From Roseovarius azorensis (GTDB taxonomy: Bacteria; Pseudomonadota; Alphaproteobacteria; Rhodobacterales; Rhodobacteraceae): a stretch of 64,000 bases of DNA. This document shows, piece by piece, positions 3,809 through 17,834 of the stretch. Under the pieces are notes generated by a model. The model saw only the letters and a list, made by a program, of their open reading frames with translations, was not told the origin of the DNA and made no database searches. Every line of letters starts with the position of its first letter. Position 1 is the first letter of the stretch. The translations under genes were made by a program, and so were the position numbers. The DNA is taken from the NCBI RefSeq assembly GCF_900109455.1, contig NZ_FOAG01000004.1, forward strand, positions 62,001 through 126,000, read 5' to 3'.

Positions 3809-5164
3809 CTACCCGCGCAACACCAGCGGCAGACCAAGACTCACCACCGGGAACAGGATCAGCAGCGTGACGCGGAACAGTTCCGAGAAAAAGAACGGCG
3901 CCACCCCGCGAAAGGTGGTCATCATCGGCACATCGCGCGCCAACGCCGATATGACAAACACGTTCATCCCCACCGGCGGCGTGATCAGCCCCAGTTCCAC
4001 CACCACCAGCGCCAGTATCCCGAACCATATCTTGAGATCCTCGGTGGACATGCCAAATCCCGCCCCCGCCGCCATCTGGTAATCGCCGCCATTCATCGCC
4101 ACCATCACCGGCCAGAAGAACGGCAGCACCAGCAGGATCATCGACAGCGAATCCATCAGACAGCCCAACAGGATGAGCGTCACCAGAAGCAGGATCAGCA
4201 CCGTCATCGGCGCAAGGCCGGAGTTGACGGCAAGTTCGGCGGCGACCTGCGGCACACCGGCCCGCGACATGAATATCTTGAGCAGTTCCGCCCCCAGCAG
4301 GATCAGATAGATCATGCCGCTCGTGCCAGCCGTCTCCAGCATCGCATCGCGGATATCCGCGCGGCTCAGTTGCCCGGTGACGACCCCATAGGCGAAAACC
4401 GCGAAAACCCCGATCGCGGCAGCGGGCGTGGGGTTGTAGAATCCCGCGTAGATGCCCCCGATCACGATGCCAAAGACCACGACGACCGGGATCACGCCAC
4501 GCGTGGCGGCCCAGAATTCGGCCCGGTTGGCAGCCCCCTGCGCCGGGCCTGACCCCGGCACCAGCCGCACATAGACCGCGATGGTCAGCATGAACAACGC
4601 CACCGCCAGCAGGCCGGGAATGAGGGCTGCCATGAACATGGTGACCACATTGGCCTCGACGATGATCGCATAGATCACCAGCACCACCGAGGGCGGGATC
4701 AGAATCCCCAGAACCCCGCCCGCCGCCACCGACCCGGTGGCCAGCGCCGGCGCGTAGTTGTAGCGTTTCAACTCGGGCAGCGCGACCTTGCCCATGGTCG
4801 ACGCGGTGGCCAACGACGAGCCGCTCACCGCGCCAAACCCGGCGCAGGCCGCGATCGCCGCCATCGCCGTGCCGCCCCGAAACCGCCCGACCCAGGCATT
4901 CGCGGCGCGGAACAGATCGCGCGACAGGCCCGTCTTGGTGGCCAGCGCCCCCATCAGGATGAACATTGGCACCACCGACAGGTCATAGATCGAGAATTGC
5001 CCGTATCCCAGCGTCTTGAGTTGCGACATCAGGATCGCCGGCCCGTTGATCAGCGTGGTGCCGATGCCGCCCACAAGGATCATCGCATAGGCAATCGGCA
5101 TCCGAATGGCGATCAGCGCGATCAGCAGAACCAATCCCGCCAGCCCCAGCGTCATCGGCTCCAT
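3809..5164 (-). CDS. TRAP transporter large permease, DctM type
   Basis: Twelve-or-so-helix membrane subunit of a sodium-driven TRAP importer, 451 residues. The start MEPMTLGLAGLV at 5164 overlaps the small-permease stop as TGATG, which fixes it. Family landmarks are IRMPIAYAMILVG near the N-terminus, RFRGGTAMAAIAACAGFGAVSGSS near residue 100, and LITPPVGMNVFVI close to the end. It is the last gene of a minus-strand operon pcaC, pobA, dctP, dctQ, dctM, so its cargo is probably an aromatic carboxylate such as 4-hydroxybenzoate. That is an inference from gene order only. Confidence 0.94.
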   Translation of the reverse strand: MEPMTLGLAGLVLLIALIAIRMPIAYAMILVGGIGTTLINGPAILMSQLKTLGYGQFSIYDLSVVPMFILMGALATKTGLSRDLFRAANAWVGRFRGGTAMAAIAACAGFGAVSGSSLATASTMGKVALPELKRYNYAPALATGSVAAGGVLGILIPPSVVLVIYAIIVEANVVTMFMAALIPGLLAVALFMLTIAVYVRLVPGSGPAQGAANRAEFWAATRGVIPVVVVFGIVIGGIYAGFYNPTPAAAIGVFAVFAYGVVTGQLSRADIRDAMLETAGTSGMIYLILLGAELLKIFMSRAGVPQVAAELAVNSGLAPMTVLILLLVTLILLGCLMDSLSMILLVLPFFWPVMVAMNGGDYQMAAGAGFGMSTEDLKIWFGILALVVVELGLITPPVGMNVFVISALARDVPMMTTFRGVAPFFFSELFRVTLLILFPVVSLGLPLVLRG

Positions 5165-5631
5165 CAGGTTCGCCCCCGGATATCTTCGATCAGGGTGATC
5201 GCCGCCGCCAGCACCAGCAGCGCCAGCGAGATCACGATCGGCACATAGGCCCACCAGATCGGCAGTTGCAGGATGGTGCTGGCCAGCTGATACGCCCTCT
5301 GATCCAGCAGCCCCAGCCACATCCGCCACATGAGCAGCGCCGCCACCGCGAACGCCACGACCGAGGCCAGCATGTCCAGCCGCCGACGACCGCGCCCGGA
5401 CAGGCCCATGGTAAAGATGTCAGCGGTCACATTATGCCGGTAAAGCTGGCAATAGGGCAGGAACATGAACACGGCCGCCGCCACCAGCATCTGCGTCAGA
5501 TCGAAATCGCCGGTAAAGGGCAGGCCGATCAGCCCGCCCAGAACGGTCCAGACATTGACCAGTACCAGCACCGACAGCAGCCCGCCGCCCAGAAGCGCCC
5601 ACCACAGGATGAGACCTCTCAGAAAACCCAT
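5164..5631 (-). CDS. TRAP transporter small permease, DctQ type
   Basis: Four-helix DctQ-type subunit, 155 residues, usual length for the family. Hydrophobic segments lie near residues 10-30, 45-65, 85-105 and 125-148, with YCQLYRHNVTADIF between helices 2 and 3, a region well kept among DctQ proteins. It pairs with the large permease in the membrane. Its stop overlaps the large-permease start by one base, and it begins 30 bases after the binding-protein stop. Confidence 0.9.
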   Translation of the reverse strand: MGFLRGLILWWALLGGGLLSVLVLVNVWTVLGGLIGLPFTGDFDLTQMLVAAAVFMFLPYCQLYRHNVTADIFTMGLSGRGRRRLDMLASVVAFAVAALLMWRMWLGLLDQRAYQLASTILQLPIWWAYVPIVISLALLVLAAAITLIEDIRGRT

Positions 5632-5661
5632 CAGCTGCGTCCTTCCGGCCCGTTACCAGGC

Positions 5662-6690
5662 CTATTGCGCGTGTCTGGCGATGGCCGCCCGCGCGGCCTC
5701 GACCAGCCCCGCCCCGTCGATGCCCTTGGCGCTGACCTCCTCGATCCAGCGATCCACGACACCCGTCGTGGCCTCCAGCATCACGGCGGTCTCGGCCTCG
5801 GTCAGCACCACATGGGTGTTGCCCGCCTCGACCGCCATGTTGATGCCGAACTCATCCGTGCCGCGCCACAATTCGCCCACCTCGCGCAGCCAATCCTCGT
5901 TCGACGCCTCGCGGAACGCCGCCTGCACGGTCTCGGGCAGGCTGTCCCATGTGGCCTTGGTCATCGACACCTGAAACACCGACGTGCCCATCCGCTCCTT
6001 GGCGGCACCCTCGATCTGAAAATCGGTCTGCTCCTGCAGCCGCAGCGGCGGAATGATCTCCCACGGGATCAGTGCGCCGTCGATCACACCCTTGGCCAGC
6101 GCCTGCGGCAGGTCCGGCACCGGCATGGCCACCGGCGTGGCCCCCAGCGCCTCGATCACCCAGGCCCCGGTGCGTGACGGGGTGCGCAGCCTCAGCCCGG
6201 CCAGATCGGCGGGCGCGCGCACCTCCTTGTCCACCATCTGGAATCCGTTGCCTGCATGCACATGCAGGAACATCACCTCAAGCCCTTCATACTCCTGCGC
6301 CAGTTCGGCTTCGAACATCTCGCGCATCGCAAGGTTGGTGGCAACCGGATCATTGACATAGACGTTTGCCAGCTCGAAAACCTCGCTGCGCGGGAACAGG
6401 CCCGAGGTATAACCGTTCAGCGTCCAGACCAGATCGACCACCCCGTCGCGCGCCTGCTGCACCAATTCGGGCGGGCGCCCGCCCAGCGTCATCGCCGGAT
6501 AGACCTCGATATCCACCGCCCCGCCGGACAACTCCTCAACCCGCTCGGCCCAGGGCACCAGCATCTTGCTGTGCGCCGGAGCGCGCTCGCTCAGGAAATG
6601 GTGCAGCTTGAGCTTGTAATCCTGCGCCCCCGCTGGCAGGGCCAGAACGATCCCCAGCGCCGCGGTACTCATGATGTTCAACAGTTTCAT
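5662..6690 (-). CDS. TRAP transporter substrate-binding protein, DctP type
   Basis: Periplasmic solute-binding protein of the TRAP system, 342 residues. It opens with a cleavable signal peptide (MKLLNIMSTAALGIVLALPAGA, cut before QDYK). The mature protein carries family landmarks: LKLHHFLSERAPAHSKMLVPWAERVEELSG near the start, the FPAMTLGGRPPELVQQ-like strand, and LRLRTPSRTGAWVIEALGATPVAMPVPDLPQALAKGVIDGA, which includes the Arg that clamps carboxylate ligands. The start lies 35 bases downstream of the pobA stop, so it is most likely co-transcribed with pobA. The ligand is unproven. Confidence 0.93.
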   Translation of the reverse strand: MKLLNIMSTAALGIVLALPAGAQDYKLKLHHFLSERAPAHSKMLVPWAERVEELSGGAVDIEVYPAMTLGGRPPELVQQARDGVVDLVWTLNGYTSGLFPRSEVFELANVYVNDPVATNLAMREMFEAELAQEYEGLEVMFLHVHAGNGFQMVDKEVRAPADLAGLRLRTPSRTGAWVIEALGATPVAMPVPDLPQALAKGVIDGALIPWEIIPPLRLQEQTDFQIEGAAKERMGTSVFQVSMTKATWDSLPETVQAAFREASNEDWLREVGELWRGTDEFGINMAVEAGNTHVVLTEAETAVMLEATTGVVDRWIEEVSAKGIDGAGLVEAARAAIARHAQ

Positions 6691-6725: not shown

Positions 6726-7898
6726 TCAGTAAGTCAGCCCGACATAGTTCTCCGCAAAACTCTTCTGCGCGGCCTCCGAATGGGCCAGATACTCGAACTC
6801 GGCCTGTTGCATCCGCCGCTCGAACGCCCCAAGCCCCGGAAAATCATGCAGCATCGAGGTCAGCGACCACGAAAACCGCTCGGCCTTCCAGACCCGCGCC
6901 AGCGCCGTGCCGGAATAGCCGTCAATGCCCGCAGACCTGCCGTGATTGAACCACAGGTCAAGCGCCCTGTGCAGATAATGCACATCGCCCACCGCCAGAT
7001 TGAGCCCCTTGGCCCCGGTCGGCGGCACGATATGCGCCGCATCGCCCGCCAGGAACAGCGCGCCATGACGCATCGGCTCGCAGACGAACGACCGCAGCGG
7101 CGCGATCGACATCTCCAGCACCTCGCCCTCGGTGACCAGCCGGGCCGCCACATCACCAGGGATCCGCTTGCAAAGCTCGTCCCAGAACCGCGTGGTCGGC
7201 CAATCCTCCAGCCGGTCAACCAGGGGTACCTGCACATAATAGCGGCTCAGGCTTGCCGAGCGCATCGAACACAGCGCGAAACCCCGCTGATGCGCGGCAT
7301 AGATCAGCTCGGGTGCCGCAGGCGGGGTGCGCGACAACAGGCCCAGCCAGCCGAACGGATATTCGCGAACATACTCCTGCCGTACCGCATCCGGAATCGC
7401 CCGGCGCGCCGGTCCGTGGAACCCGTCACAACCCGCGACAAACCGCGCCTCCAGACGGTGCTCTACACCGTCCCTGGCATAAACCACCACCGGTGCATCG
7501 CTCTGCCCCTCCTCGATGCGCAGCACCTCGGCCCCGTGGATCACCTGACCGCCGCGCGCGTCGCGGGCGGCATAGAGATCGCGCGTCACCTCGGTCTGAC
7601 CATAGACCGTGACCGACCGACCGGTCAGCCCCGCCAGATCAATCCGCACCCGCGCGTCGTGCCAACTCAGCTCGACGCCCTCATGCCTCTGCCCTTCGGC
7701 ATGCAACCTCTCTGCCACGCCCGCCTCTTCCAGAACGCCGACTGCCCCCGCCTCCAGCACCCCGGCCCTGATCCGGCCCAGCACGTAATCGCGGCTCTGC
7801 CGTTCCAGCACCACGCTGTCGATGCCGCTCAGATCCAGCAACTGCGACAACAGCAGACCCGCCGGACCGCCGCCGATGATCGCCACCTGCGTTCTCAT
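6726..7898 (-). CDS. pobA: 4-hydroxybenzoate 3-monooxygenase
   Basis: FAD-dependent aromatic hydroxylase that converts 4-hydroxybenzoate to protocatechuate with NAD(P)H and oxygen. At 390 residues it matches the usual PobA length. The start MRTQVAIIGGGPAGLL at 7898 gives a proper N-terminal FAD fold; longer in-frame starts add non-conserved sequence. Landmarks are GGGPAGLL (residues 9-16), RQSRDYVLGRIRAGVLEAG, the DG motif in AGCDGFHGPARR, and LAGDAAHIVPPTGAKGLNLA for FAD ribityl binding. It lies between pcaC upstream and a TRAP transporter downstream. The product feeds straight into PcaHG, encoded divergently nearby. Confidence 0.96.
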   Translation of the reverse strand: MRTQVAIIGGGPAGLLLSQLLDLSGIDSVVLERQSRDYVLGRIRAGVLEAGAVGVLEEAGVAERLHAEGQRHEGVELSWHDARVRIDLAGLTGRSVTVYGQTEVTRDLYAARDARGGQVIHGAEVLRIEEGQSDAPVVVYARDGVEHRLEARFVAGCDGFHGPARRAIPDAVRQEYVREYPFGWLGLLSRTPPAAPELIYAAHQRGFALCSMRSASLSRYYVQVPLVDRLEDWPTTRFWDELCKRIPGDVAARLVTEGEVLEMSIAPLRSFVCEPMRHGALFLAGDAAHIVPPTGAKGLNLAVGDVHYLHRALDLWFNHGRSAGIDGYSGTALARVWKAERFSWSLTSMLHDFPGLGAFERRMQQAEFEYLAHSEAAQKSFAENYVGLTY

Positions 7899-7935: not shown

Positions 7936-8316
7936 TCACGCCTCAGCGTCCATTTCCGCGAACACCGCCCTGGCGATCTTGAGCGCATGATTGGCGCGCG
8001 GCACACCGGCATAGATCGCCACATGCTGCAACGCTTCCGCCACGTCGGTCCGGCTTGCGCCGGTGCGGGCGGTGGCGCGGATATGCATCGGCAGTTCGTC
8101 GAAATTCCCCAGCGCGGCCAACAGCGCGATGGTCAGCATTGAACGCTCGCGATCCGCGATCGCATCCGACGACCAGACCCGCCCCCAGGCCGCCTCGGTG
8201 ATCAGCGTCTGAAACGCCCGGTCCAGCGCGTCGGTCTCGCGGGCCGCCCGGTCCACATGCTCATCCCCCAGAATCCGTCTCCGGGTCTGCATGCCCCGGT
8301 CATGGATGTCCGTCAT
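7936..8316 (-). CDS. pcaC: 4-carboxymuconolactone decarboxylase
   Basis: Small cytoplasmic enzyme of the protocatechuate branch of the beta-ketoadipate pathway; it decarboxylates gamma-carboxymuconolactone to the enol-lactone. The 126 residues starting at MTDIHDRGMQTRR match the single-domain PcaC length and the CMD/AhpD-like fold: RRRILGDEHVDRA near the N-terminus, SSDAIADRERSMLTIALLAALG, and YAGVPRANHALKIA with the conserved His. It is first in the minus-strand operon, ahead of pobA, and a PcaQ-type site lies about 150 bases upstream. Confidence 0.94.
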   Translation of the reverse strand: MTDIHDRGMQTRRRILGDEHVDRAARETDALDRAFQTLITEAAWGRVWSSDAIADRERSMLTIALLAALGNFDELPMHIRATARTGASRTDVAEALQHVAIYAGVPRANHALKIARAVFAEMDAEA

Positions 8317-8462
8317 CCTCGCCTCCGAAATCAAACTGTGCAGCGGTGGCAAATACCCCAGCTCCCTGTCCCATTTCTTCTATCGTGTTACGCATGCAAG
8401 TCCCCACGCCTTAGTCTGGCATAACTCCATCATCTCTAATAATAGAAATCGTGACATAACTC

Positions 8463-8478
8463 ATAACCAATTGGCTAT
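8463..8478. promoter_or_regulatory. Candidate PcaQ operator upstream of pcaC-pobA
   Basis: The bases ATAACC-AATT-GGCTAT form an imperfect dyad that fits the LysR-type box I recall for PcaQ of rhizobia (ATAACC, four bases, GGTTAA). It sits in the 230-base gap between the pcaQ stop and the pcaC start, about 147 bases upstream of pcaC, where a LysR activator would act on the pcaC-pobA-TRAP transcript. The assignment rests on motif similarity only. Confidence 0.55.
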
Positions 8479-8546: not shown

Positions 8547-9494
8547 TCATTGGTCGAGCGTTTCATTGACCACGCCGCCGTGGTCGCGCATCCGCACCAC
8601 CCGGCGCAGGTGTTCGATGAAACTGGTCCGCTCGATGCTGATCGTCGCCGCCTCGGGCAGGCTGATACCGACCGGCCCCGCCAGCAGCGCCGAGCCAAGC
8701 GTCAGCGACGCCAATGTGCCGCGCGCCAGTTCCTCGGCCACCACCCCGCGCGAGATGAACCACAGCATGTCTGAATGCTGCACCACACGTCGACCAAAGG
8801 GCAGCGAAACCGTCTCGAACGCGCCTCGCCGTCCGACAAGGCCAAGGCTCGACAGATAACGCTCGACCGTGAGCGCGATGACCGCGCCCCTTGGCGGCAG
8901 GATCAGGTCATAGGTGTCGATCTCCGCCGTCGGGTCGGGCACGGACAACAGCGGATGACCGGGCCGGACAACCAGCACCACATCCTCGGAATAAAGCTGT
9001 TCAAAGCTCAGACCAGCCAGATCGGTGGCCTCGGGCATCCGCCCCACGACCAGATCAAGACGCCCCTCGCGCAACTGATTGTAAAGCAGCCAGTTCGGCC
9101 CCGAGAGCACATGCAGCTGCGCCGCCGGATTGTCCTGCCGAAAACCAAGAGCGGCCAGCGGCACCAGATCGGTGGCGGCGGTCGGCAGCGCGCCCACGGA
9201 AATCCGCGCCGCAGCGCGTGCACTGCCCTGCACCCGGTCGCGGGCGCGCATCAACTCCAGCAACGAGGCCGAGGCGTGATTCTGAAAGATTCGCCCATGT
9301 GCATTCAGCCGCAGCCCGCGCCCCACCCGGTCAAACAGCCGCGCGCCCAGCATATCCTCCAACTCCTTGAGCGCACGCGATACCGCGGGCTGCGTGATGT
9401 TCAGCCGCTCGGCAGCCGCCGAAACGCTCTCGGCGCGCGCAATCTCCAGAAAGCAGCGCAGATGCCGCAGACGTATGCCGGTTTCCCAATTCAT
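8547..9494 (-). CDS. pcaQ: LysR-family regulator of the pca genes, PcaQ type
   Basis: DNA-binding activator, 315 residues. The N-terminal winged helix-turn-helix (residues about 8-70) reads RHLRCFLEIARAESVSAAAERLNITQPAVSRALKELEDMLGARLFDR, and the rest is the LysR effector domain. In the PcaQ family the ligand is beta-carboxymuconate. It is placed between pcaC-pobA (same strand, downstream) and pcaHG (divergent), and a PcaQ-like box lies nearby, so control of both arms is likely. The AT-rich gap to pcaH (9495-9614) probably carries its own operator. The family is certain; the PcaQ name rests on context and the box. Confidence 0.85.
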   Translation of the reverse strand: MNWETGIRLRHLRCFLEIARAESVSAAAERLNITQPAVSRALKELEDMLGARLFDRVGRGLRLNAHGRIFQNHASASLLELMRARDRVQGSARAAARISVGALPTAATDLVPLAALGFRQDNPAAQLHVLSGPNWLLYNQLREGRLDLVVGRMPEATDLAGLSFEQLYSEDVVLVVRPGHPLLSVPDPTAEIDTYDLILPPRGAVIALTVERYLSSLGLVGRRGAFETVSLPFGRRVVQHSDMLWFISRGVVAEELARGTLASLTLGSALLAGPVGISLPEAATISIERTSFIEHLRRVVRMRDHGGVVNETLDQ

Positions 9495-9614
9495 AATCTT
9501 AATGTAATTAAAATATCAAAAATAGAAATTTAAATAATCTATTTCTTATGTTTTTATTCACGCAGAGGACATCGCCATCGCCTTCATGCTATGCGCGAGA
9601 CTGGGAGGACCACC
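9495..9614. promoter_or_regulatory. Divergent promoter region pcaQ / pcaHG
   Basis: A sharply AT-rich 120-base stretch between two divergent genes. It holds an interrupted dyad ATAGA-11 bases-TCTAT (about 9524-9544), the place where a LysR protein would be expected to bind for autoregulation and activation of pcaH. AATAGAAAT inside it recurs upstream of pcaC near 8440. A good ribosome site, GGGAGG at 9603-9608, precedes pcaH. Confidence 0.5.
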
Positions 9615-10352
9615 ATGACCGATACCGCCCTGCCACCGGGCCCCTTCTATCAGCGTGACCGCAGGCTGCAGCCACCGGCGCTGACGCCCGCCTACAAGAC
9701 CTCGGTCGCGCGCTCTCCGCGCCTGCCGATGATCTCGCTGGAAAACACGATCTCCGAGATCACCGGCCCGCGTTTCGGCCATGCCGATCTGGGCCCGCTC
9801 GACAATGACCTCCTTCGCAACTATGCGCAGGATGGCGACCCCATCGGCGAACGCATCATCGTGCATGGCCGGGTTCTGGACGAAAACGCCCGCCCGGTGC
9901 CGCACACGCTGGTCGAAATCTGGCAGGCCAACGCCGGTGGCCGCTACCGCCACAAGAAGGACAGCTATCTTGCCCCCATCGACCCCAATTTCGGCGGCTG
10001 CGGGCGGTGTCTGACGGATGCGGACGGCTATTACTTCTTCCGCACGGTCAAGCCCGGCGCATACCCGTGGCGCAACTGGGTCAACAACTGGCGGCCCGCG
10101 CATATTCACGTCTCGGTCTTTGGCTCGGGCTTTGCCCAGCGGCTGATCACGCAGATGTATTTCGAAGGCGATCCGCTGATCGCCAGATGCCCCATCGTGC
10201 AGACCGTACCCGACGCGGACGCCATCGACCGGCTGATCGCCCCACTGGACATGAACGCGGCGATACCGCTCGACAGCCTTGCCTACAAGTTCGACATCGT
10301 GCTGCGCGGTCGCCGTTCGACCATGTTCGACAACCGCCCGGAAGGGAACTAG
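9615..10352 (+). CDS. pcaH: Protocatechuate 3,4-dioxygenase beta subunit
   Basis: Catalytic iron-binding subunit that opens the protocatechuate ring between the two hydroxyls to give 3-carboxy-cis,cis-muconate. 245 residues from [10 protein letters not shown], chosen because GGGAGG lies seven bases upstream. The four Fe(III) ligands of intradiol dioxygenases are visible: Tyr111 in GGRYRHKK, Tyr150 in GAYPWRN, and His163/His165 in RPAHIHVSV, offset by three from the Pseudomonas enzyme. It is followed two bases later by pcaG. Confidence 0.97.
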
Positions 10353-10354
10353 CC

Positions 10355-10969
10355 ATGCCGCAACCGCTTGACTATCTCCGCGAAACCGCCTCGCAGACCG
10401 CCGGTCCCTACGTCCATATCGGCCTCGCCCCCGGTGCCGCCGGGTTCGAGATTTTCCACAACCGCATCGGCGGGGACATCGCCGGGCCCGAGGCGCAGGG
10501 CGAACGCATCCGCGTCGCCGGCTGTGTGTTCGACGGCACCGGCGCACCGCTCAAGGATGTTCTGATCGAGGTCTGGCAGGCCAATGCCGCAGGCATCTAT
10601 CCGCATCCCGAAGACCCTCGCGCAAATGAGGTCGAGAAGGGCTTTCGCGGCTGGGGACGGGTAATTTCAGATTTCGAAACAGGCGAATTCACCTTTGAAA
10701 CGGTCAAGCCAGGCGCGATCCCGGGGCCGAAGGAAACTATGCAGGCCCCGCATCTCAATCTCTGGATCGTGGCGCGCGGCATCAACATCGGCCTGCAGAC
10801 GCGCGCCTACTTCGAGGACGAGACCGAGGCCAACGCTGCCGATCCGGTCCTGAGCCTGATCGAACAGGCGCAGCGCCGCGATACCCTGCTGGCGCGCAAG
10901 ACCGCGGGCGGGTATCGTTTCGACATTCATCTTCAGGGCGACAAGGAAACGGTATTCTTCGATGTCTGA
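10355..10969 (+). CDS. pcaG: Protocatechuate 3,4-dioxygenase alpha subunit
   Basis: Partner of PcaH, 204 residues starting MPQPLDYLRETASQTAGPYVHIGL, a normal PcaG N-terminus that contributes to the active-site mouth. It has the intradiol fold (RIRVAGCVFDGTGAPLKDVLIEVWQANAAG) but lacks the Tyr/His iron ligands, as alpha subunits do. The start follows the pcaH stop by two bases, and the 3' end overlaps the next gene by eight bases, so translation is probably coupled along the operon. Confidence 0.96.
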   Translation: MPQPLDYLRETASQTAGPYVHIGLAPGAAGFEIFHNRIGGDIAGPEAQGERIRVAGCVFDGTGAPLKDVLIEVWQANAAGIYPHPEDPRANEVEKGFRGWGRVISDFETGEFTFETVKPGAIPGPKETMQAPHLNLWIVARGINIGLQTRAYFEDETEANAADPVLSLIEQAQRRDTLLARKTAGGYRFDIHLQGDKETVFFDV

Positions 10970-11810
10970 TCATACTGGCAAACCCTGCATTCTCTGCGTG
11001 GCGATCACCGGATCGCTGCCGACCAAGGCCAATAATCCGGCGGTGCCGATCACCATCGCCGAGCAGGTCGACTCCACCCACGAGGCGTTCGAGGCCGGGG
11101 CCTCCATCGCGCATTGCCATGTGCGGCTCGAGGACGGCACGCCCACCTCCGACCCCGAACGCTTTGCACGGCTCAAGGAGGGGCTGGAAAAACACTGCCC
11201 CGGCATGATCCTGCAGTTCTCGACCGGCGGGCGATCCGGCGCGGGGCAGGCGCGCGGCGGGATGCTGCCGCTGCGCCCCGACATGGCCTCGCTCTCGGTG
11301 GGCTCCAACAACTTCCCTACCCGCGTCTACGAGAACCCGCCCGATCTGGTGGCCTGGCTGGCCTCCGAGATGCGCAAATACGAGGTCACGCCGGAAATCG
11401 AGGCCTTCGACCTCAGCCATATCCTGCGCGCCGTCGACATGCACAACAAGGGCGAGCTCTACGGCAAGCTCTACGTGCAATTCGTGATGGGCGTGAAAAA
11501 CGCCATGCCCGCCGACCGCGCTGTGTTTGATTTCTACGTTCAGATCATGCGCGATCGCGCGCCTGACGCCAACTGGTGCGCCGCCGGGATCGGACCCAAC
11601 CAGATTGTCGTCAACGAATGGGCCATCGCGGCGGGCGGACATACCCGCACCGGGCTTGAGGATAACGTGCGTCTCGACCGTGACCGGCTGGCCCCCTCCA
11701 ACGCCGCGCTGGTGCGCCGCGCGGTCGAACTGTGCGAGAAATACGCGCGCCCGGTGGCCACGGCAGCACAGGCGCGCGCGATCCTCGGGCTGCGCGCCGC
11801 AGCGGCCTGA
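10962..11810 (+). CDS. Beta-keto-acid cleavage enzyme (DUF849/BKACE family)
   Basis: Zinc-dependent enzyme of the family that condenses a beta-keto acid with acetyl-CoA and splits it to acetoacetate and a new acyl-CoA. 282 residues. The metal site is visible: His51 and His53 in IAHCHVR, and Glu233 in TGLEDN. Other family landmarks are AITGSLPTKANNPAVPIT and NEWAIAAGGHTRTGLEDN. It lies inside the pca operon between pcaG and pcaD, and no pcaIJ or pcaF is in the window. I infer that its substrate is beta-ketoadipate, giving succinyl-CoA plus acetoacetate. The family is firm; the substrate is inferred. Confidence 0.9.
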   Translation: MSDHTGKPCILCVAITGSLPTKANNPAVPITIAEQVDSTHEAFEAGASIAHCHVRLEDGTPTSDPERFARLKEGLEKHCPGMILQFSTGGRSGAGQARGGMLPLRPDMASLSVGSNNFPTRVYENPPDLVAWLASEMRKYEVTPEIEAFDLSHILRAVDMHNKGELYGKLYVQFVMGVKNAMPADRAVFDFYVQIMRDRAPDANWCAAGIGPNQIVVNEWAIAAGGHTRTGLEDNVRLDRDRLAPSNAALVRRAVELCEKYARPVATAAQARAILGLRAAAA

Positions 11811-11832: not shown

Positions 11833-12618
11833 ATGCCTTTTCTCAGACCGCGCGACGCGGTGCTCCATTACGCCTGCCGCCCCGGCGATCCGGCGCGCCG
11901 CGCCATCGTCCTTGCCAATTCGCTCGGCACCGATCTGCGCATCTGGGACGGCGTGATCGCCCGCCTGCCCGCAGACATCCCCGTGCTGACGCATGACAAG
12001 CGCGGGCACGGGCTGTCGGATGTGACACCTGTGGACATGGCCACCCATATCCGCGACTGCGCCGATCTGATGGATCACCTCGGCCTGCGCGATGCGCTGA
12101 TCTGCGGCGTCTCGGTGGGCGGGCTGATCGCACAGGGGCTGGCCGCCACCCGCCCCGATCTGGTGGCGGGGCTGGTGCTCAGCAACACTGCCCAGCGCAT
12201 CGGCGACGCCGACGGCTGGAACGCCCGCATCGCACGCGTTCAGGCCGAGGGGCTGGAGGGCATGGCCGACGAGATCATGGAACGCTGGTTCTCACCCGGC
12301 TTTCGCGCAGCCCATCCCGCCGACTGGGCGGGCTACCGCAACATGCTGCTGCGCACCCCCGCACCGGGCTATATCGCCACCTGCGCCGCGATCCGCGATA
12401 CCGATTTCACCGCGACGACCCGCGCCCTGCGCCTGCCGGTCACCTGCATCGCCGGCAGCGCCGATCAGGCCACCCCGCCCGCGCTGGTGCAAGGCATGGC
12501 AGAGCTGATCGAGGGCGCAACCCTGCACTGCCTGACCGATGTCGGCCACCTGCCCTGCATAGAGGTGCCCGCCACGCTGGCCGATCTGCTGCTTGACCTC
12601 TACGGACGCCTGCCATGA
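11833..12618 (+). CDS. pcaD: 3-oxoadipate enol-lactonase
   Basis: Alpha/beta hydrolase that hydrolyses beta-ketoadipate enol-lactone to beta-ketoadipate. 261 residues from MPFLRPRDAVLHY; the ATG at 11833 has AGGAGA eight bases upstream. The nucleophile elbow GVSVGG places Ser94, the oxyanion strand is VLANSLGTDLRIWDG near residue 27, and the catalytic His is in DVGHLPCIE near the C-terminus. The stop overlaps the pcaB start as ATGA. In this cluster PcaD and PcaC are separate proteins, not a PcaL fusion. Confidence 0.94.
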   Translation: MPFLRPRDAVLHYACRPGDPARRAIVLANSLGTDLRIWDGVIARLPADIPVLTHDKRGHGLSDVTPVDMATHIRDCADLMDHLGLRDALICGVSVGGLIAQGLAATRPDLVAGLVLSNTAQRIGDADGWNARIARVQAEGLEGMADEIMERWFSPGFRAAHPADWAGYRNMLLRTPAPGYIATCAAIRDTDFTATTRALRLPVTCIAGSADQATPPALVQGMAELIEGATLHCLTDVGHLPCIEVPATLADLLLDLYGRLP

Positions 12619-13676
12619 TCTCGGTATTCGACGGCGGCTGGATGCAGAGCCTCTTCGCCGACGCCGAGGCGGGCGCGCTCTGGTCAGCGGAGACGCAGAT
12701 GGGGCAATATCTGGCATTCGAGGCCGCCTGGTCCCGTGCCCTGGGGCGGGTCGGACTGGCCGCGCCGGACAGCGCGGAACGCGCCGCGAAAGTCATCGAA
12801 CGCTTTGCCCCTGACATGGCTCGCCTGCATGCCGATACCGCTCGCGATGGGCTGCCCGTTCCCGGCCTCGTGCGGCAACTCAGGGAAGCGGCAGCAGAGG
12901 ATGCGGACGCGGTGCATCGCGGTGCCACCTCGCAGGATGTGATGGACACCGGCCTGTCGCTGACCCTCAGGGCGCTCGATGATCTCCTGCTGACCCGCCT
13001 TGCCCGGTTGCAGAGCGCGCTCAGCACCCTGGTCGCCCGGTTCGGCGACAACACGATGATGGGCCGCACCCGGATGCAGGCGGCGCTGCCCATCCCTGCA
13101 GGTCACCGCGTTGCCGCATGGGCGGCGCCGCTCGACGATCACGCCGCGCGCCTCACCCGCCTGCGGCCCATGGCGGAGCGACTCCAGCTTGGCGGCGCGG
13201 TTGGCACCCGCGACGGTCTCGACGGCAAGGGCGCTGCGATGGCCGCGATCATGGCCGATGCGCTTGGCCTCCATAACCCGGCACAGCCCTGGCACACGGA
13301 CCGCAGCGGGCTAACGGATTATGGTAACTGCCTGTCGCTGATCACCGGCAGCCTAGGCAAGATGGGACAGGATATCTGCCTGATGGCCCAGCAAGGCGTG
13401 AACGAGATCGCGCTCGCCCAGGGCGGCGGATCCTCCGCGATGCCGCACAAGTCCAACCCGATCCTCGCCGAACTGCTGGTCACGCTGGCGCGGTTCAACG
13501 CCACGCAGGTTGCGGGGTTGCATCAGACAATGGTGCACGAACAGGAACGCTCGGGCGCCGCATGGGCGCTGGAATGGATGATCCTGCCACAGATGACAAT
13601 GACCTGCGCGCGCGCCCTCTCTGCCGCCACGACGCTCTGCGAGCGTATCGACCGGATCGGAGCACCCGTTACCTGA
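12615..13676 (+). CDS. pcaB: 3-carboxy-cis,cis-muconate cycloisomerase
   Basis: Fumarase/aspartase-superfamily enzyme that lactonises carboxymuconate, between PcaHG and PcaC in the pathway. 353 residues, at the short end of the family. The superfamily signature is complete (GGGSSAMPHKSNP near residue 275), and HRGATSQDVMDTGLSL near residue 100 is the second conserved block. Last gene of the pcaHG-BKACE-pcaD-pcaB operon. Its stop is two bases from the end of the convergent IclR gene, leaving no room for an intergenic terminator. Confidence 0.95.
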   Translation: MISVFDGGWMQSLFADAEAGALWSAETQMGQYLAFEAAWSRALGRVGLAAPDSAERAAKVIERFAPDMARLHADTARDGLPVPGLVRQLREAAAEDADAVHRGATSQDVMDTGLSLTLRALDDLLLTRLARLQSALSTLVARFGDNTMMGRTRMQAALPIPAGHRVAAWAAPLDDHAARLTRLRPMAERLQLGGAVGTRDGLDGKGAAMAAIMADALGLHNPAQPWHTDRSGLTDYGNCLSLITGSLGKMGQDICLMAQQGVNEIALAQGGGSSAMPHKSNPILAELLVTLARFNATQVAGLHQTMVHEQERSGAAWALEWMILPQMTMTCARALSAATTLCERIDRIGAPVT

Positions 13677-13678
13677 CG

Positions 13679-14458
13679 CTACCGGTCGTCGCCCTCAGCG
13701 ACGAGCCGCGACAGATCCTCCGCCGCCTTGCGCATCGCGGCAAGAAAGCCAAGCGCTTTTTCGACATCGAACCGCTGCGTCGGCGCATGAAACGCAAGCG
13801 TGGCCATCAACCTCCGGTTGGCGTCGAGGATCGGCACCGCCAGCGCTATCATGTCTGCCATGAATTCCTCGCGGTCCAGCGCATAGCCCTGGCGACGGAT
13901 CTCGCGGATTTCCTCGAGCAGCGCGTCACGGTCGGTCAGCGTATTGGGCGTGCGCACCACAAGTTCGGCGGCCGAGAGATATTTCAAAAGATGCGCGCGC
14001 GCCAGAGAACTGAGATACATCTTGCCGCTGGCCGTGCAATAGAACGGCACGCGCGTGCCGATCGGCAACTGGATACGCAGCGGCCATTGGGTCTCCACCC
14101 GTTCAAGATAGATCATGGCATCCCGGTCCGGCAGCGCGATGTTGCAGGTCTCGCCAATCTCGCGGCTGACACGTTGCAGGATCGCCTGTCGGGCGGTCCT
14201 GATCCGCAGCGACGACAGGATGCCACCCGCCAGAGTGCGCAGGCGCGGTCCGGGTGAATAGGTCCGCCCGTCCATGTCGCGCTGCAGGAACCCCTCTTCT
14301 TCCAGCGTGGCGAAGAGACGGTGGATGGTCGGCTTGGGCAGGCCAAGCTCTGCATTCACATCCGTCGGCGTCACCGGGACACCTACCCTTGCGATATGTT
14401 CAATCACCATGAGCAAACGCAGGTTGGTTGGTATCGTTGCCGAGCCGTCGCCGTCCAT
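13679..14458 (-). CDS. IclR-family transcriptional regulator
   Basis: 259-residue regulator with an N-terminal winged helix (about residues 10-75; VTPTDVNAELGLPKPTIHRLFATLEEEGFLQRD) and a C-terminal IclR effector domain (FYCTASGKMYLSSL; GYALDREEFMADMIALAVPI). It is convergent with pcaB and lies immediately downstream of the second TRAP operon on the same strand, so it more likely senses that transporter's cargo than protocatechuate. PcaR/PobR proteins are also IclR members, so a role in pca control cannot be excluded. Confidence 0.9.
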   Translation of the reverse strand: MDGDGSATIPTNLRLLMVIEHIARVGVPVTPTDVNAELGLPKPTIHRLFATLEEEGFLQRDMDGRTYSPGPRLRTLAGGILSSLRIRTARQAILQRVSREIGETCNIALPDRDAMIYLERVETQWPLRIQLPIGTRVPFYCTASGKMYLSSLARAHLLKYLSAAELVVRTPNTLTDRDALLEEIREIRRQGYALDREEFMADMIALAVPILDANRRLMATLAFHAPTQRFDVEKALGFLAAMRKAAEDLSRLVAEGDDR

Positions 14459-14471
14459 CCGTAATTCATTC

Positions 14472-15830
14472 CTAGCGTTGCGGCAGCAGCGCCGTCGACA
14501 GGCCGGGAACCAGCGCGACGATCACCCAGACCGCGATCAGAGCCACAAGATAGGGGACCGTGTAGCGCAAAAGCCGGAAATAGGGAACGCCCGTCACACC
14601 CGAGGCCACATAGAGGTTCAGCCCATAGGGCGGCGTGATGAATCCGATCGAGGCCCCGACAAGAAAGATCACCGCGAACTGCACCGGCTCTATCCCAACC
14701 GAATGCGCGATCGGCGCCAGGATCGGCGCAAGGATGATCGTCACCGGCAGGCTTTCCAGAACCATGCCGCAGACAAAGACAATCGCCATCGAGGTGAACA
14801 GAACCGCGTGATAGCCGCCCATCGAGGTCACGAAACCACCGATCACCTCCTGTGCGCCAAGCGCGGACAGCATCTGCTGCATCACGACAGAGACAGCGAT
14901 AAGCGGTGCCAGAATGCCCGTGATCTGCGCCGAACGCATGGTGATCGACGGCAGTTCCAGCGGACTGAACCCTTCGACCACCAGCATTTCCGAGATCCGC
15001 TTTTCCGACACGTCGCGCCCCTTGGCCCCGCCCATCAACCGATGGAGCGGCAGGCTGAGAAAGCCCACGATCACGCAAAATCCCACCGTGACGCCCGCCG
15101 CCTCGGTCGGTGAAAACTTGCCCGTGTAGATACCCCACAGCACGAGACCGATGGCGAAAAATCCCAGCCACGCCCCGATCGCGGTCTTGATCACCCGCAA
15201 CGGGCTCAGCGCGATGAGAAAACCCCAGCCGTTGCGCCAGCAGATCAGAAAGCAGGCGATCATCATTGCGCCCACCATCATCATGCCCGGAATGATCCCG
15301 GCCACGAACAGATCCGAGATCGGCAGATTCAGCAGGAACCCGTAGACGATAAAGATGATCGACGGCGGGATGATGATCCCCACCGTGCCGCCCGCCGCGG
15401 CGGTGGCCGCCGAGAATCGCTCGTCATAGCCGCCCTTGACCATCTCGGGATGCAACATCGAGCCGATGGTCGCCGTGGTGGCCGAGTTTGAGCCGGAAAT
15501 CGCTGCAAACAGCCCGCACGCCCCGAGCGAGGCCATCGCCAGCCCGCCCCGGATCCAGCCCAGACAGGCATAGGCGAAATCGCTCAGCCGCCGGGCGATG
15601 CCAGAGCGGTTGATAAGATCGCCGGTCAGGATGAAGAGCGGCATCGCCAGCAGCGCGAAACCGTTGGTGAATACATGCATCAGCGCTGCCCCGATGTTGT
15701 CCAGCGGCATGCCGATCAGAAAGGATACGCCAATAATCCAGTAGCCGATGACCAGAAACACCGGCACGCCCAGCATGAAGAGAAAGGTAACGCCGATCGA
15801 GATCAGCGTGATGATCGTGGAATCGCCCAT
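14472..15830 (-). CDS. TRAP transporter large permease, DctM type (second system)
   Basis: 452-residue multi-helix subunit. Landmarks are GVPVFLVIGYWIIGVSF, RIRGG-like CLGWIRGGLAMASLGACGLFAAISGSNSAT, AAGGTVGIIIPPSIIFIVYG and ITPPYGLNLYVASGV. It starts one base after the small-permease stop. The putative ligand is unknown: the nearest enzymes are a GMC oxidoreductase and, across the IclR gene, the pca operon. It is clearly a separate system from the one at 3809-6690. Confidence 0.94.
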   Translation of the reverse strand: MGDSTIITLISIGVTFLFMLGVPVFLVIGYWIIGVSFLIGMPLDNIGAALMHVFTNGFALLAMPLFILTGDLINRSGIARRLSDFAYACLGWIRGGLAMASLGACGLFAAISGSNSATTATIGSMLHPEMVKGGYDERFSAATAAAGGTVGIIIPPSIIFIVYGFLLNLPISDLFVAGIIPGMMMVGAMMIACFLICWRNGWGFLIALSPLRVIKTAIGAWLGFFAIGLVLWGIYTGKFSPTEAAGVTVGFCVIVGFLSLPLHRLMGGAKGRDVSEKRISEMLVVEGFSPLELPSITMRSAQITGILAPLIAVSVVMQQMLSALGAQEVIGGFVTSMGGYHAVLFTSMAIVFVCGMVLESLPVTIILAPILAPIAHSVGIEPVQFAVIFLVGASIGFITPPYGLNLYVASGVTGVPYFRLLRYTVPYLVALIAVWVIVALVPGLSTALLPQR

Positions 15831-15831
15831 C

Positions 15832-16500
15832 TCATTCGCCCCCGATCACGGCCTGCGTTACAAGCGTATCGCCCGACCGGAAATTGCCGATATCGGTCAG
15901 CGCGTTCTCCAGCACCCGCGCGACCAGCGTGGTAAAGGCCAGCGGCACCGAGATCATGAACCACCACTGCATCACATGGTCAGTGCCCAGCATGATCTGA
16001 AAATTCGAGGCGGAATTCGCGACCACCCGCAGCGAGGTCACCACCACAACCCACGAAAACCCGACCCAGAGTACCGCATCCAGCATCAGACAGGCCATCT
16101 GCCCCGCGCGCGGCATGGCGGTGCGAAACTCGGCAAAGGCCAGATGCGTGCGCAGCTTGACGTTATAGCTGCACCCAAACCACGTCATGATGAGAAACAG
16201 GAACGGCGGCAGGGTGGTGGACCACGGCACCTGCTGCGACAGCACGAACCGGCGGAACACCTCGACAAAGATGATGCCGCCGATCGCCAGGTATGAGACC
16301 ACCATGAGCGTCGACTCCAGACTGCGCTCGGCCCAGGGGCTGACACGGTAGACAACAAGTATCGCAACCGCCGTGACCAGCATCGCGATCAGCCCCAGCG
16401 GCCAGACCGCAGGCTGGCGCAATGCCTCGCTCAGCATCCAGGAATCGCCTGCAGATAGGGCGCTCAGGATCTCTCCCATGCCCTGAAACCAGCCAGTCAT
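15832..16500 (-). CDS. TRAP transporter small permease, DctQ type (second system)
   Basis: Membrane subunit, 222 residues from the ATG at 16500 (MTGWFQGMGEIL), which has GGAGG seven bases upstream; an in-frame GTG at 16536 would add 12 residues. It has an extra N-terminal helix (WPLGLIAMLVTAVAILVVYRVS) before the four core DctQ helices, so it is longer than the first system's DctQ. WFGCSYNVKLRTHLAFAEFRTAMP is the conserved central loop. Confidence 0.88.
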   Translation of the reverse strand: MTGWFQGMGEILSALSAGDSWMLSEALRQPAVWPLGLIAMLVTAVAILVVYRVSPWAERSLESTLMVVSYLAIGGIIFVEVFRRFVLSQQVPWSTTLPPFLFLIMTWFGCSYNVKLRTHLAFAEFRTAMPRAGQMACLMLDAVLWVGFSWVVVVTSLRVVANSASNFQIMLGTDHVMQWWFMISVPLAFTTLVARVLENALTDIGNFRSGDTLVTQAVIGGE

Positions 16501-16554
16501 GCCCATTCCTCCCTCTGGGTTGCCGTCTTCTGACACGCCGCGCGCGTCGGTGCA

Positions 16555-16585
16555 GAGCGGGCCGCCGCCGCAGGGCGGCCCGCTC
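16555..16585. promoter_or_regulatory. Strong hairpin between TRAP binding-protein and permease genes
   Basis: A perfect 12-base-pair GC-rich stem (arms 16555-16566 and 16574-16585, loop of seven) in the 98 bases between dctP-type stop and dctQ-type start. No T-run follows on the minus strand, so it is more likely an attenuator or RNA-processing/stability element than a full terminator. It would favour more binding protein than permease. Confidence 0.6.
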
Positions 16586-16598
16586 TCACGTTATCCGC

Positions 16599-17834
16599 TC
16601 AGGCCGAACGCCACCAGCGGCGCGGCTCGACATTCTCGGGCAGCATATCCACCGGGATCTCGCGCGCCACGTCATAGATTTCCTGATAGGTGTCGATGCC
16701 GTCTGCCCAGCCATTAAGCCGCTCACGCCATTGCGCCCAGGGCTCGGGGTTGAACTCGGGCGAACACATCTCCTCTGCCATTTTCACCTGATCGTCAGGC
16801 AGAAACGCCGGGCGCACGTTGTTCTCGGCAAAGATCGTGCCGGGCAGTTGCGGATCGGAGAAGCCCACGGTCTTGATCAGCGCCGCCTCGTTCGCGGCCT
16901 GCACATGGACCTGCGCCAGATAGGCCGATTCCATGATCGCATCCTGCAGATGCGGCTCCATCGCGTCGAACACCTTGGCCGACATCGAGGTGTGCTCGGT
17001 ACCGCAGAAGAACTTCAGATCAACCGACTGGCTGACCACTGGCGACATGTTTGCATAGGCCACGGCCGAAGCCCATGTTTCCGCCCCGTCAATGAGACCC
17101 TGCTTGAGGCCGTCAAGTGTCTCTTCCCATGCGACCGGCACCGGGTTGAGGTTCAGCAGTTGCATGGCGATCCGGCCCAGTTGCGTGCCGGTCACCCGGT
17201 TCTTGGTGCCGAACAACTCTTCCAGCTTGGTCACCGTGGGCTTGCCCGCAAAGGACTGTCCCATCTGAAGACCGCGCAATTCGCAATGGCTGAACAGGAA
17301 CTTCAGCCCGTGCCGCTTTTCCAGCGGGTCACGCAGGATACGCTGCGAGGCGGGGCTGTAGAGGAAATGATACTGCGCCGCCCTACTGGGGAACATATAG
17401 GCATAATCCAGCACGTTGAGATAAGGCGCGCCGCCGGCCGAGTTCTGGGTTGAGGCCGCATACATATCGACCACGCCCAACTGAGTCTTTTCCACACAGT
17501 TGAGCTGACCGCAGATCTGATTGTCACCGATGAATTCCACCCTGATCTCACCCTCGGTCCGCTCCTCCAGGTCGCGGGCGAATTCCAGAACGCCGGCGCG
17601 CTCGATCAACAGGTTACGCGCGTTGAAACCCGACGCGCCCAGTTTCAGCGTGTGCTTGGCTTCCTTGGCAAAACGCTTGTCATAGGTGCTCTCGGCGGCT
17701 CGCGCCAGCGACGACAGCGTGACCGTCCCGGTCAGTGCCCCGGCGCCCAGCACCACGGATGACAGGCCGAACTGACCTGACAGACGGAACAGATCCCGGC
17801 GGGAAATTCCGCTGAGGGCTTTTGATACTTTCAT
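16599..17834 (-). CDS. TRAP transporter substrate-binding protein with Tat-type signal (second system)
   Basis: 411-residue periplasmic binding protein, longer than typical DctP. The N-terminus carries a twin-arginine signal (SRRDLFRLSG, then a hydrophobic stretch to SSLARA), so it is probably exported folded. The mature part follows the DctP plan: LEERTEGEIRVEFIGDNQICGQLNCVEKTQLGVVDMYAAS, and GLKQGLIDGAETWASAVAYANM. It is the first gene of the operon dctP, dctQ, dctM, iclR, and its promoter faces that of the GMC oxidoreductase across 116 AT-rich bases. Confidence 0.9.
   Translation of the reverse strand: MKVSKALSGISRRDLFRLSGQFGLSSVVLGAGALTGTVTLSSLARAAESTYDKRFAKEAKHTLKLGASGFNARNLLIERAGVLEFARDLEERTEGEIRVEFIGDNQICGQLNCVEKTQLGVVDMYAASTQNSAGGAPYLNVLDYAYMFPSRAAQYHFLYSPASQRILRDPLEKRHGLKFLFSHCELRGLQMGQSFAGKPTVTKLEELFGTKNRVTGTQLGRIAMQLLNLNPVPVAWEETLDGLKQGLIDGAETWASAVAYANMSPVVSQSVDLKFFCGTEHTSMSAKVFDAMEPHLQDAIMESAYLAQVHVQAANEAALIKTVGFSDPQLPGTIFAENNVRPAFLPDDQVKMAEEMCSPEFNPEPWAQWRERLNGWADGIDTYQEIYDVAREIPVDMLPENVEPRRWWRSA

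Follow-up and report, generated by a model that had tools for sequence, protein, structure and literature searches.

A BKACE Gene in the pca Operon of Roseovarius azorensis and a Predicted Ending of Protocatechuate Degradation Through ScoAB and a Thiolase

Introduction

The operon for protocatechuate degradation in Roseovarius azorensis includes a gene for a beta-keto-acid cleavage enzyme (BKACE) that, with a probability that we put at roughly 0.8, ends the protocatechuate branch by acting on beta-ketoadipate, the acetoacetate that it would release then passing through the CoA-transferase ScoAB and a thiolase. In the predicted BKACE step, beta-ketoadipate and acetyl-CoA would be converted to succinyl-CoA and acetoacetate. 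ScoAB, the only 3-oxoacid CoA-transferase found, would activate the acetoacetate using the succinyl-CoA just formed, and the resulting acetoacetyl-CoA would be split by a thiolase into two molecules of acetyl-CoA. Such an ending would share with PcaIJ and PcaF both its starting compound and, once ScoAB and the thiolase are added, its net yield, but BKACE belongs to an unrelated enzyme family and 3-oxoadipyl-CoA would never be formed. The gene, its operon and family membership, the ScoAB pair, and the thiolases are all apparent from the genome sequence, in which PcaI-class and PcaF-class genes were not detected.

BKACE endings have been described or proposed in other bacteria. Nearly all pcaG-bearing strains of Methylobacterium have the gene located between pcaG and pcaB, annotations of pcaI, pcaJ, and pcaF are reported to be absent there, and the gene is proposed to do the work of pcaI and pcaJ, with reference to Bastard et al. 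(2014) (PMC8963497). The same gene is named kce in a study in which pcaHGBL, kce, and vanABK were introduced into M. extorquens PA1 and conferred growth on protocatechuate and vanillate; the cloned set contained no pcaIJF, the native complement of PA1 being a separate matter (PMC12379598). The island of another M. extorquens strain is described with PcaIJ and PcaF (PMC12542667). For a betaproteobacterial homologue, a catechol role has been suggested, and linkage with protocatechuate 3,4-dioxygenase genes was noted (PMC6449761). The R. azorensis and Methylobacterium genes are alike in their position directly 3′ of pcaG, in operons without annotated pcaIJF, and in the reaction proposed for them (PMC8963497; PMC12379598); they differ in the gene that follows, which is pcaB in Methylobacterium and pcaD in R. 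azorensis. Deoxyribonate use offers a further parallel, in that a BKACE ending followed by thiolysis, and in one species by acetoacetate activation, is backed by mutant fitness (PMC6365646). In Pseudomonas simiae and Paraburkholderia bryophila, the BKACE likewise has an acyl-CoA and acetoacetate as its proposed products, with the acetoacetate activated and thiolysed, but that enzyme acts on ketodeoxyribonate and is encoded in another operon (PMC6365646).

Since both the Methylobacterium arrangement and the idea of replacement are published, neither the enzyme nor the idea is new; the observation in R. azorensis is real, its interpretation is mainly correct, and it is already described in kind. 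What the present analysis adds is the link between the fate of acetoacetate and scoAB. No link of this BKACE gene with scoAB in pca operons was found in the literature searched, a body outside which most subscription journals lie.

Organization of the pca Operon

The subject of the analysis is a window, that is, the whole stretch of 64,000 nt that was analysed, of the R. azorensis contig NZ_FOAG01000004.1 (GCF_900109455.1). Within it, pobA, pcaC, and pcaQ are followed by the run pcaH-pcaG-BKACE-pcaD-pcaB on the opposite strand (Table 1), and each of these genes scores above an NCBIfam cut-off. The BKACE open reading frame runs from ATG to TGA and encodes 282 amino acids. It overlaps pcaG, the TGA stop codon of which occupies 10967-10969, by exactly eight bases (10962-10969), and a preliminary description of this DNA, which had placed the gene between pcaG and pcaD with an eight-base overlap, agrees exactly with these coordinates. 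The ATG of pcaD is preceded by AGGAG, and the start of pcaB overlaps pcaD. The start given for pcaH is our own choice, made for its position 3′ of GGGAGG in a frame that opens at 9591. The IclR-family regulator that converges with the operon is a candidate only for membership of the pca system.

Table 1. Genes of the pca region in the R. azorensis window, with model scores in bits.
Gene	Product or relation	Coordinates	Strand	Model and score (cut-off)	Remark
pobA	4-hydroxybenzoate 3-monooxygenase	6726..7895	-	TIGR02360, 588.7 (538.7)	
pcaC	4-carboxymuconolactone decarboxylase	7936..8304	-	TIGR02425, 178.1 (155.7)	start uncertain, frame opens at 8352
pcaQ	LysR-type pca regulator	8547..9494	-	TIGR02424, 314 (303.8)	divergent from pcaH
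pcaH	protocatechuate 3,4-dioxygenase beta	9615..10352	+	TIGR02422, 374.8 (296.4)	
pcaG	protocatechuate 3,4-dioxygenase alpha	10355..10969	+	TIGR02423, 250.1 (126.25)	
kce-type BKACE gene	predicted 3-oxoadipate:acetyl-CoA acetyltransferase	10962..11810	+	NF053568 (equivalog), 483.2 (350)	
pcaD	3-oxoadipate enol-lactonase	11833..12618	+	TIGR02427, 297.6 (255.85)	yields beta-ketoadipate
pcaB		12615..13676	+	TIGR02426, 360.5 (355.75); NF004631, 448.7 (371)	
IclR-family regulator gene	PcaR/PcaU/PobR-related	13679..14458	-	TIGR02431, 168.9 (284.75)	below cut-off; convergent with operon

CoA-transferase and thiolase genes were not found in the window by tblastn at E 1e-3 with one ScoA/B pair, one PcaI/J/F set, and three thiolases as queries, and the earlier statement that the window is free of such genes holds within the reach of these queries.

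Sets of genes resembling those of TRAP transporters, as judged by eye from the translations, lie on both sides of the cluster (3809-6690 and 14472-17834). Between pcaQ and pcaC, a near-palindrome (ATAACC-N4-GGCTAT; 8463-8478) departs at two positions from the PcaQ box. A scan with that motif, which was not used as evidence, returned 17 matches against 9.7 expected, little over chance.

Identity of the BKACE Enzyme

Membership of the BKACE family (DUF849) is given by PF05853, with a score of 302.5 bits against a cut-off of 24.8. Within the family, the enzyme matches NF053568, the model of 3-oxoadipate:acetyl-CoA acetyltransferase, over its full length, with an E-value of 2e-145 and 133 bits above the cut-off, and no difference that would distinguish it from the beta-ketoadipate group was found. 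That the functional survey of the family included a group active on beta-ketoadipate had been stated in the preliminary description, in agreement with accounts in the literature (PMC8963497; PMC4922564). The R. azorensis genome carries three further BKACE genes, none of which exceeds the NF053568 cut-off, so that the window gene alone passes. A second R. azorensis BKACE gene (L001, 1501-2391) scores above the model of 3,5-dioxohexanoate:acetyl-CoA acetone transferase (480 bits; cut-off 430). Identity with the Kce of lysine fermentation was considered and rejected, as the window enzyme failed the corresponding model (244.2 bits; cut-off 382); in an alignment with Kce (2y7d), the position of Kce Glu14 is occupied by Leu19.

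The nearest solved structures are 3chv, 3fa5, and 3no5. Two long stretches of 3chv are identical to the product of Ruegeria pomeroyi SPO_RS19985, a gene that is located directly 3′ of pcaG, and a stretch of 3fa5 is identical to the enzyme of the pca cluster in Paracoccus denitrificans DSM 413.

The BKACE enzymes that have been studied among the relatives are zinc-dependent. His51, His53, Arg229, Glu233, and Asp234 of the window enzyme align with the conserved His-x-His and Arg...Glu-Asp motifs of Kce (2y7d), which we take to be the zinc and catalytic residues, and all five are present in 99 of 99 aligned sequences, a set chosen for more than 60% identity to the window gene. Arg91 and Arg98 are likewise invariant across this same set and are replaced by other residues in two paralogues (L002 and L004), making them candidates for holding the distal carboxylate of the substrate.

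CoA-Transferases and Thiolases of the Genome

The R. azorensis genome is 99.97% complete and contains a single 3-oxoacid CoA-transferase pair, which is of the ScoAB (succinyl-CoA:acetoacetate) class. The pair exceeds the cut-offs of TIGR02429 (231.6 against 128.5 bits) and TIGR02428 (329 against 243.55), models that are common to PcaIJ and ScoAB and do not tell the two apart. Its subunit A shares 67% identity with ScoA of B. subtilis (3cdk, the best structure) and 46% with Rhizobium PcaI, whereas the Rhizobium PcaI that adjoins pcaF is 49% identical to 3cdk. From the subfamily models and this nearest structure, the pair is predicted to be a succinyl-CoA:acetoacetate CoA-transferase.

A PcaI-class CoA-transferase was not found in the genome with queries that very distant transferase types may escape, and a PcaF-class thiolase was not found among five thiolase matches, two of which are adjacent pieces and the best of which reaches 396.5 bits against a cut-off of 597. 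Of the three thiolases examined, this best match passes the BktB subfamily model, and the other two have their top scores with acetyl-CoA C-acetyltransferase models, where they fall under the cut-offs, and lie above that of the general acetyl-CoA C-acyltransferase model TIGR01930. The PcaF cut-off was passed in none of 14 named control genomes and in 74 of the 120 genomes of a family sample that includes R. azorensis, so the search is able to detect genes of this class. The check for pcaIJF elsewhere in the genome that the preliminary description had proposed brought to light, within the reach of these queries, only the ScoAB pair and thiolases below the cut-off, and the possibility of a hidden set was set aside.

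These findings bear on the reading in which the classical route persists, ScoAB serving as the beta-ketoadipate CoA-transferase, a BktB-like or other thiolase cleaving 3-oxoadipyl-CoA, and BKACE being auxiliary. Such a reading draws on the inability of TIGR02428 and TIGR02429 to separate the two transferase classes, but the identities of subunit A place it in the ScoAB class, the R. azorensis thiolases found all score below the PcaF cut-off, and the BKACE gene lies within the operon itself.

Acetoacetate and the Linkage of scoAB

The preliminary description had BKACE end the pathway in one step. The predicted step consumes acetyl-CoA, and because its chemistry leaves acetoacetate, activation (probably by ScoAB) and a thiolase would be needed beyond it. 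A ScoA-class gene is present in 77 of the 80 genomes of the family sample that carry the enzyme and in 33 of the 40 that do not (Fisher 0.015), and its presence as such counts for little because it is near universal. In four of the 80 carriers (G072, G099, G112, and G039), it starts no more than 4 kb from the BKACE gene, where random placement would give 0.18 such cases (P 3.8e-5). Directly 3′ of the enzyme gene stand scoA and scoB in G099 and G112; in G072 (L129, 4096-7284), the enzyme gene is followed by scoA, two open reading frames that no NCBIfam model matches at E 1e-10, and then scoB, the ScoA-class match beside the enzyme being the only one found in that genome; and in G039, scoAB comes after pcaB. 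The Phaeobacter inhibens plasmid pP88_d has the order pcaC-H-G-kce-scoA-scoB-pcaD-pcaB, with a ScoA that is 88% identical to that of R. azorensis, and a further locus (L082) likewise has a scoA-class gene near the enzyme gene. The occurrence of scoA or scoAB beside the enzyme gene in some relatives suggests an ending of three enzymes, namely BKACE, ScoAB, and a thiolase. For another BKACE, BKACE15 of P. denitrificans, an IC50 of 1.45 mM has been reported for inhibition by acetoacetate (PMC11961710), an effect by which quick removal of acetoacetate would be rewarded.

A ScoA-class gene was not found in three of the 80 carriers (G008, which is 82% complete, G102, and G103). Among 30 named carrier genomes searched, Prosthecomicrobium hirschii (L018) gave no CoA-transferase match at E 1e-30 or better, and Marimonas arenosa (L030) gave a single match that belongs to neither class. 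Either acetoacetate takes another route in these ScoA-free carriers or the model fails there.

Reinterpretation of Roseovarius nubinhibens

Mutants of Roseovarius nubinhibens provide evidence on the fate of beta-ketoadipate that can be read in two ways. The transferase annotated as "pcaI" (ISM_RS03130) is needed for growth on 4-hydroxybenzoate, and the authors infer the classical ending from the failure of its knock-out to grow; pcaF is not induced, the single loss of pcaF or of the thiolase ISM_RS10035 has no visible effect, and cultures of the double mutant end at a lower density (PMC12442348). The acetyl-CoA C-acetyltransferase ISM_RS07170 is described as up in the mutants and down in the wild type on 4-hydroxybenzoate (PMC12442348). 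The terms "DUF849", "cleavage enzyme", "3-keto-5-aminohexanoate", and "acetoacetate" are absent from the main text of that study. The transferase knock-out and the lower density of the double mutant are the results that speak for persistence of the classical route, but the former would be expected just as much with ScoAB acting on acetoacetate, and the harmlessness of losing pcaF alone tells against that route. Weighed together with the transferase class, the thiolase scores, and the place of the BKACE gene in the operon, persistence of the classical route in R. azorensis appears unlikely.

If R. nubinhibens has this BKACE, most of the results would follow from an ending by BKACE, ScoAB, and an acetoacetyl-CoA thiolase, which might also explain why the single loss of pcaF is harmless; the wild-type drop of ISM_RS07170 suits passage through acetoacetate less well. 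The pcaB gene of R. nubinhibens lies apart from the pca cluster, and a Roseovarius relative (L013) carries an NF053568 gene directly before pcaB. In R. spongiae (L069), the single transferase match is of the ScoA class. We lean, by little over even odds, to a broader proposal: that in roseobacters and their relatives the pathway often ends through BKACE, ScoAB, and acetoacetyl-CoA thiolase in turn, that scoAB is sometimes drawn into the operon because acetoacetate inhibits BKACE, and that the "pcaIJ" of R. nubinhibens would be scoAB acting on acetoacetate, with pcaF dispensable there as 3-oxoadipyl-CoA lies off the main route. The scoAB linkage bears on the recent puzzle of a pcaF whose sole loss shows no effect.

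Distribution Among Relatives

Among the best 80 of 503 relatives of the enzyme, 63 of 80 loci have pcaG within 2.5 kb upstream in the same orientation, one of the remaining loci being cut off by a contig end; chance adjacency of the two genes is ruled out by this recurrence. The nearest named matches are from Rhodobacteraceae. In the family sample, the counts for which were taken from match lists whose weakest entries fall far under the classes counted, the NF053568 enzyme occurs in 80 of the 120 genomes, pcaG in 72, and both in 65, among the matches listed. In 45 of these 65 genomes the enzyme gene starts no more than 1.5 kb from pcaG, in 47 no more than 6 kb, and in 18 it lies elsewhere. BKACE may accordingly be a usual way for protocatechuate degradation to end in the family (65 of the 72 sampled pcaG genomes, among the matches listed), in which case annotations as "3-keto-5-aminohexanoate cleavage protein" and similarity searches for pcaIJ or pcaF would miss the real route. 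Where the enzyme gene stands alone, Pfam scans of its neighbours revealed no common theme.

A pcaIJF cluster or a CoA-transferase-pcaF cluster, counted where a PcaI-like gene stands beside pcaF or pcaF stands near pcaG, is present in one of the 65 pcaG genomes with the enzyme (G094) and in five of the seven without it (Fisher 8.8e-6, a value that ignores kinship). The other two enzyme-free genomes are G091, with pcaIJ close to a contig end and, on a different contig, a PcaF match (528 bits) that is partial, and G119, which is only 78% complete. Among the carriers scored as cluster-free, G082 may hold a pcaIJF cluster split between two contigs, one with pcaIJ close to its end and the other with pcaF at its start. 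A PcaI 67-78% identical to that of Rhizobium is found in five of the 65 carriers (G052, G082, G092, G094, and G101), with pcaF adjoining in G094 only, and in four of the seven enzyme-free pcaG genomes; in G066 and G088, PcaI is 55-56% identical to the Rhizobium protein.

The PcaF model also takes thiolases of the phenylacetate pathway. A PcaF-class thiolase was tried as a marker of the classical route and dropped, as the model takes thiolases of other pathways and, among the matches listed, one is present somewhere in 43 of the 65 carriers, the remaining 22 having no thiolase above the cut-off.

The preliminary reading that BKACE replaces PcaIJ and PcaF is upheld for R. azorensis by a genome in which no PcaI-class or PcaF-class gene was found, but BKACE would not end the pathway alone, and replacement is not universal, because eight of the 30 named carrier genomes searched (of the 80 loci) also hold pcaI-pcaJ-pcaF, P. 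denitrificans DSM 413 included. Coexistence of this kind raises the reading that the two endings operate side by side, whether as redundancy or for flux control, and examples of it are G094, with the enzyme within the pca operon (L155) and pcaIJF on a separate contig (L116), and a Nitratireductor MAG (L070, 10001-13154), in which the BKACE gene is followed directly by pcaF and then by pcaB in a mixed ending. With neither PcaI-class nor PcaF-class genes found in its genome, parallel endings in R. azorensis are very improbable. The notion that BKACE has some other beta-keto acid as its target, a side substrate within the operon, has behind it the promiscuity of BKACE enzymes (PMC4922564), but it can be all but dismissed. 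Against it stand the NF053568 equivalog match, the tight linkage to pcaG, the fact that carriers in the family sample rarely have PcaIJF clusters, and the two genomes without the enzyme (G014 and G059) in which a CoA-transferase pair and pcaF take up the same slot, between pcaG and pcaB.

In a sample of 240 genomes of the class, pcaG occurs in 47, the enzyme in 12, and both in five, and 34 of the 42 pcaG genomes without the enzyme have a thiolase above the PcaF cut-off; as only five of the 47 pcaG genomes carry the enzyme, this sample was not used to assess mutual exclusion.

Several loci deserve mention in their own right. In the two BKACE-free genomes with a filled pcaG-pcaB slot, this slot (L133, 1964-3630; L134, 7297-8929) holds divergent CoA-transferase pairs (PF01144; no NCBIfam match at E 1e-10) together with pcaF. 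In R. pomeroyi DSS-3 (L101, 9001-12767), two CrcB-family genes follow the enzyme gene, pcaD and pcaB lying outside the stretch examined. Two contigs labelled as actinobacterial, from Enemella evansiae (L074) and Nocardioides marinus (L075), have pca clusters with an enzyme at 78-79% identity, which reflect either transfer or mislabelled assemblies.
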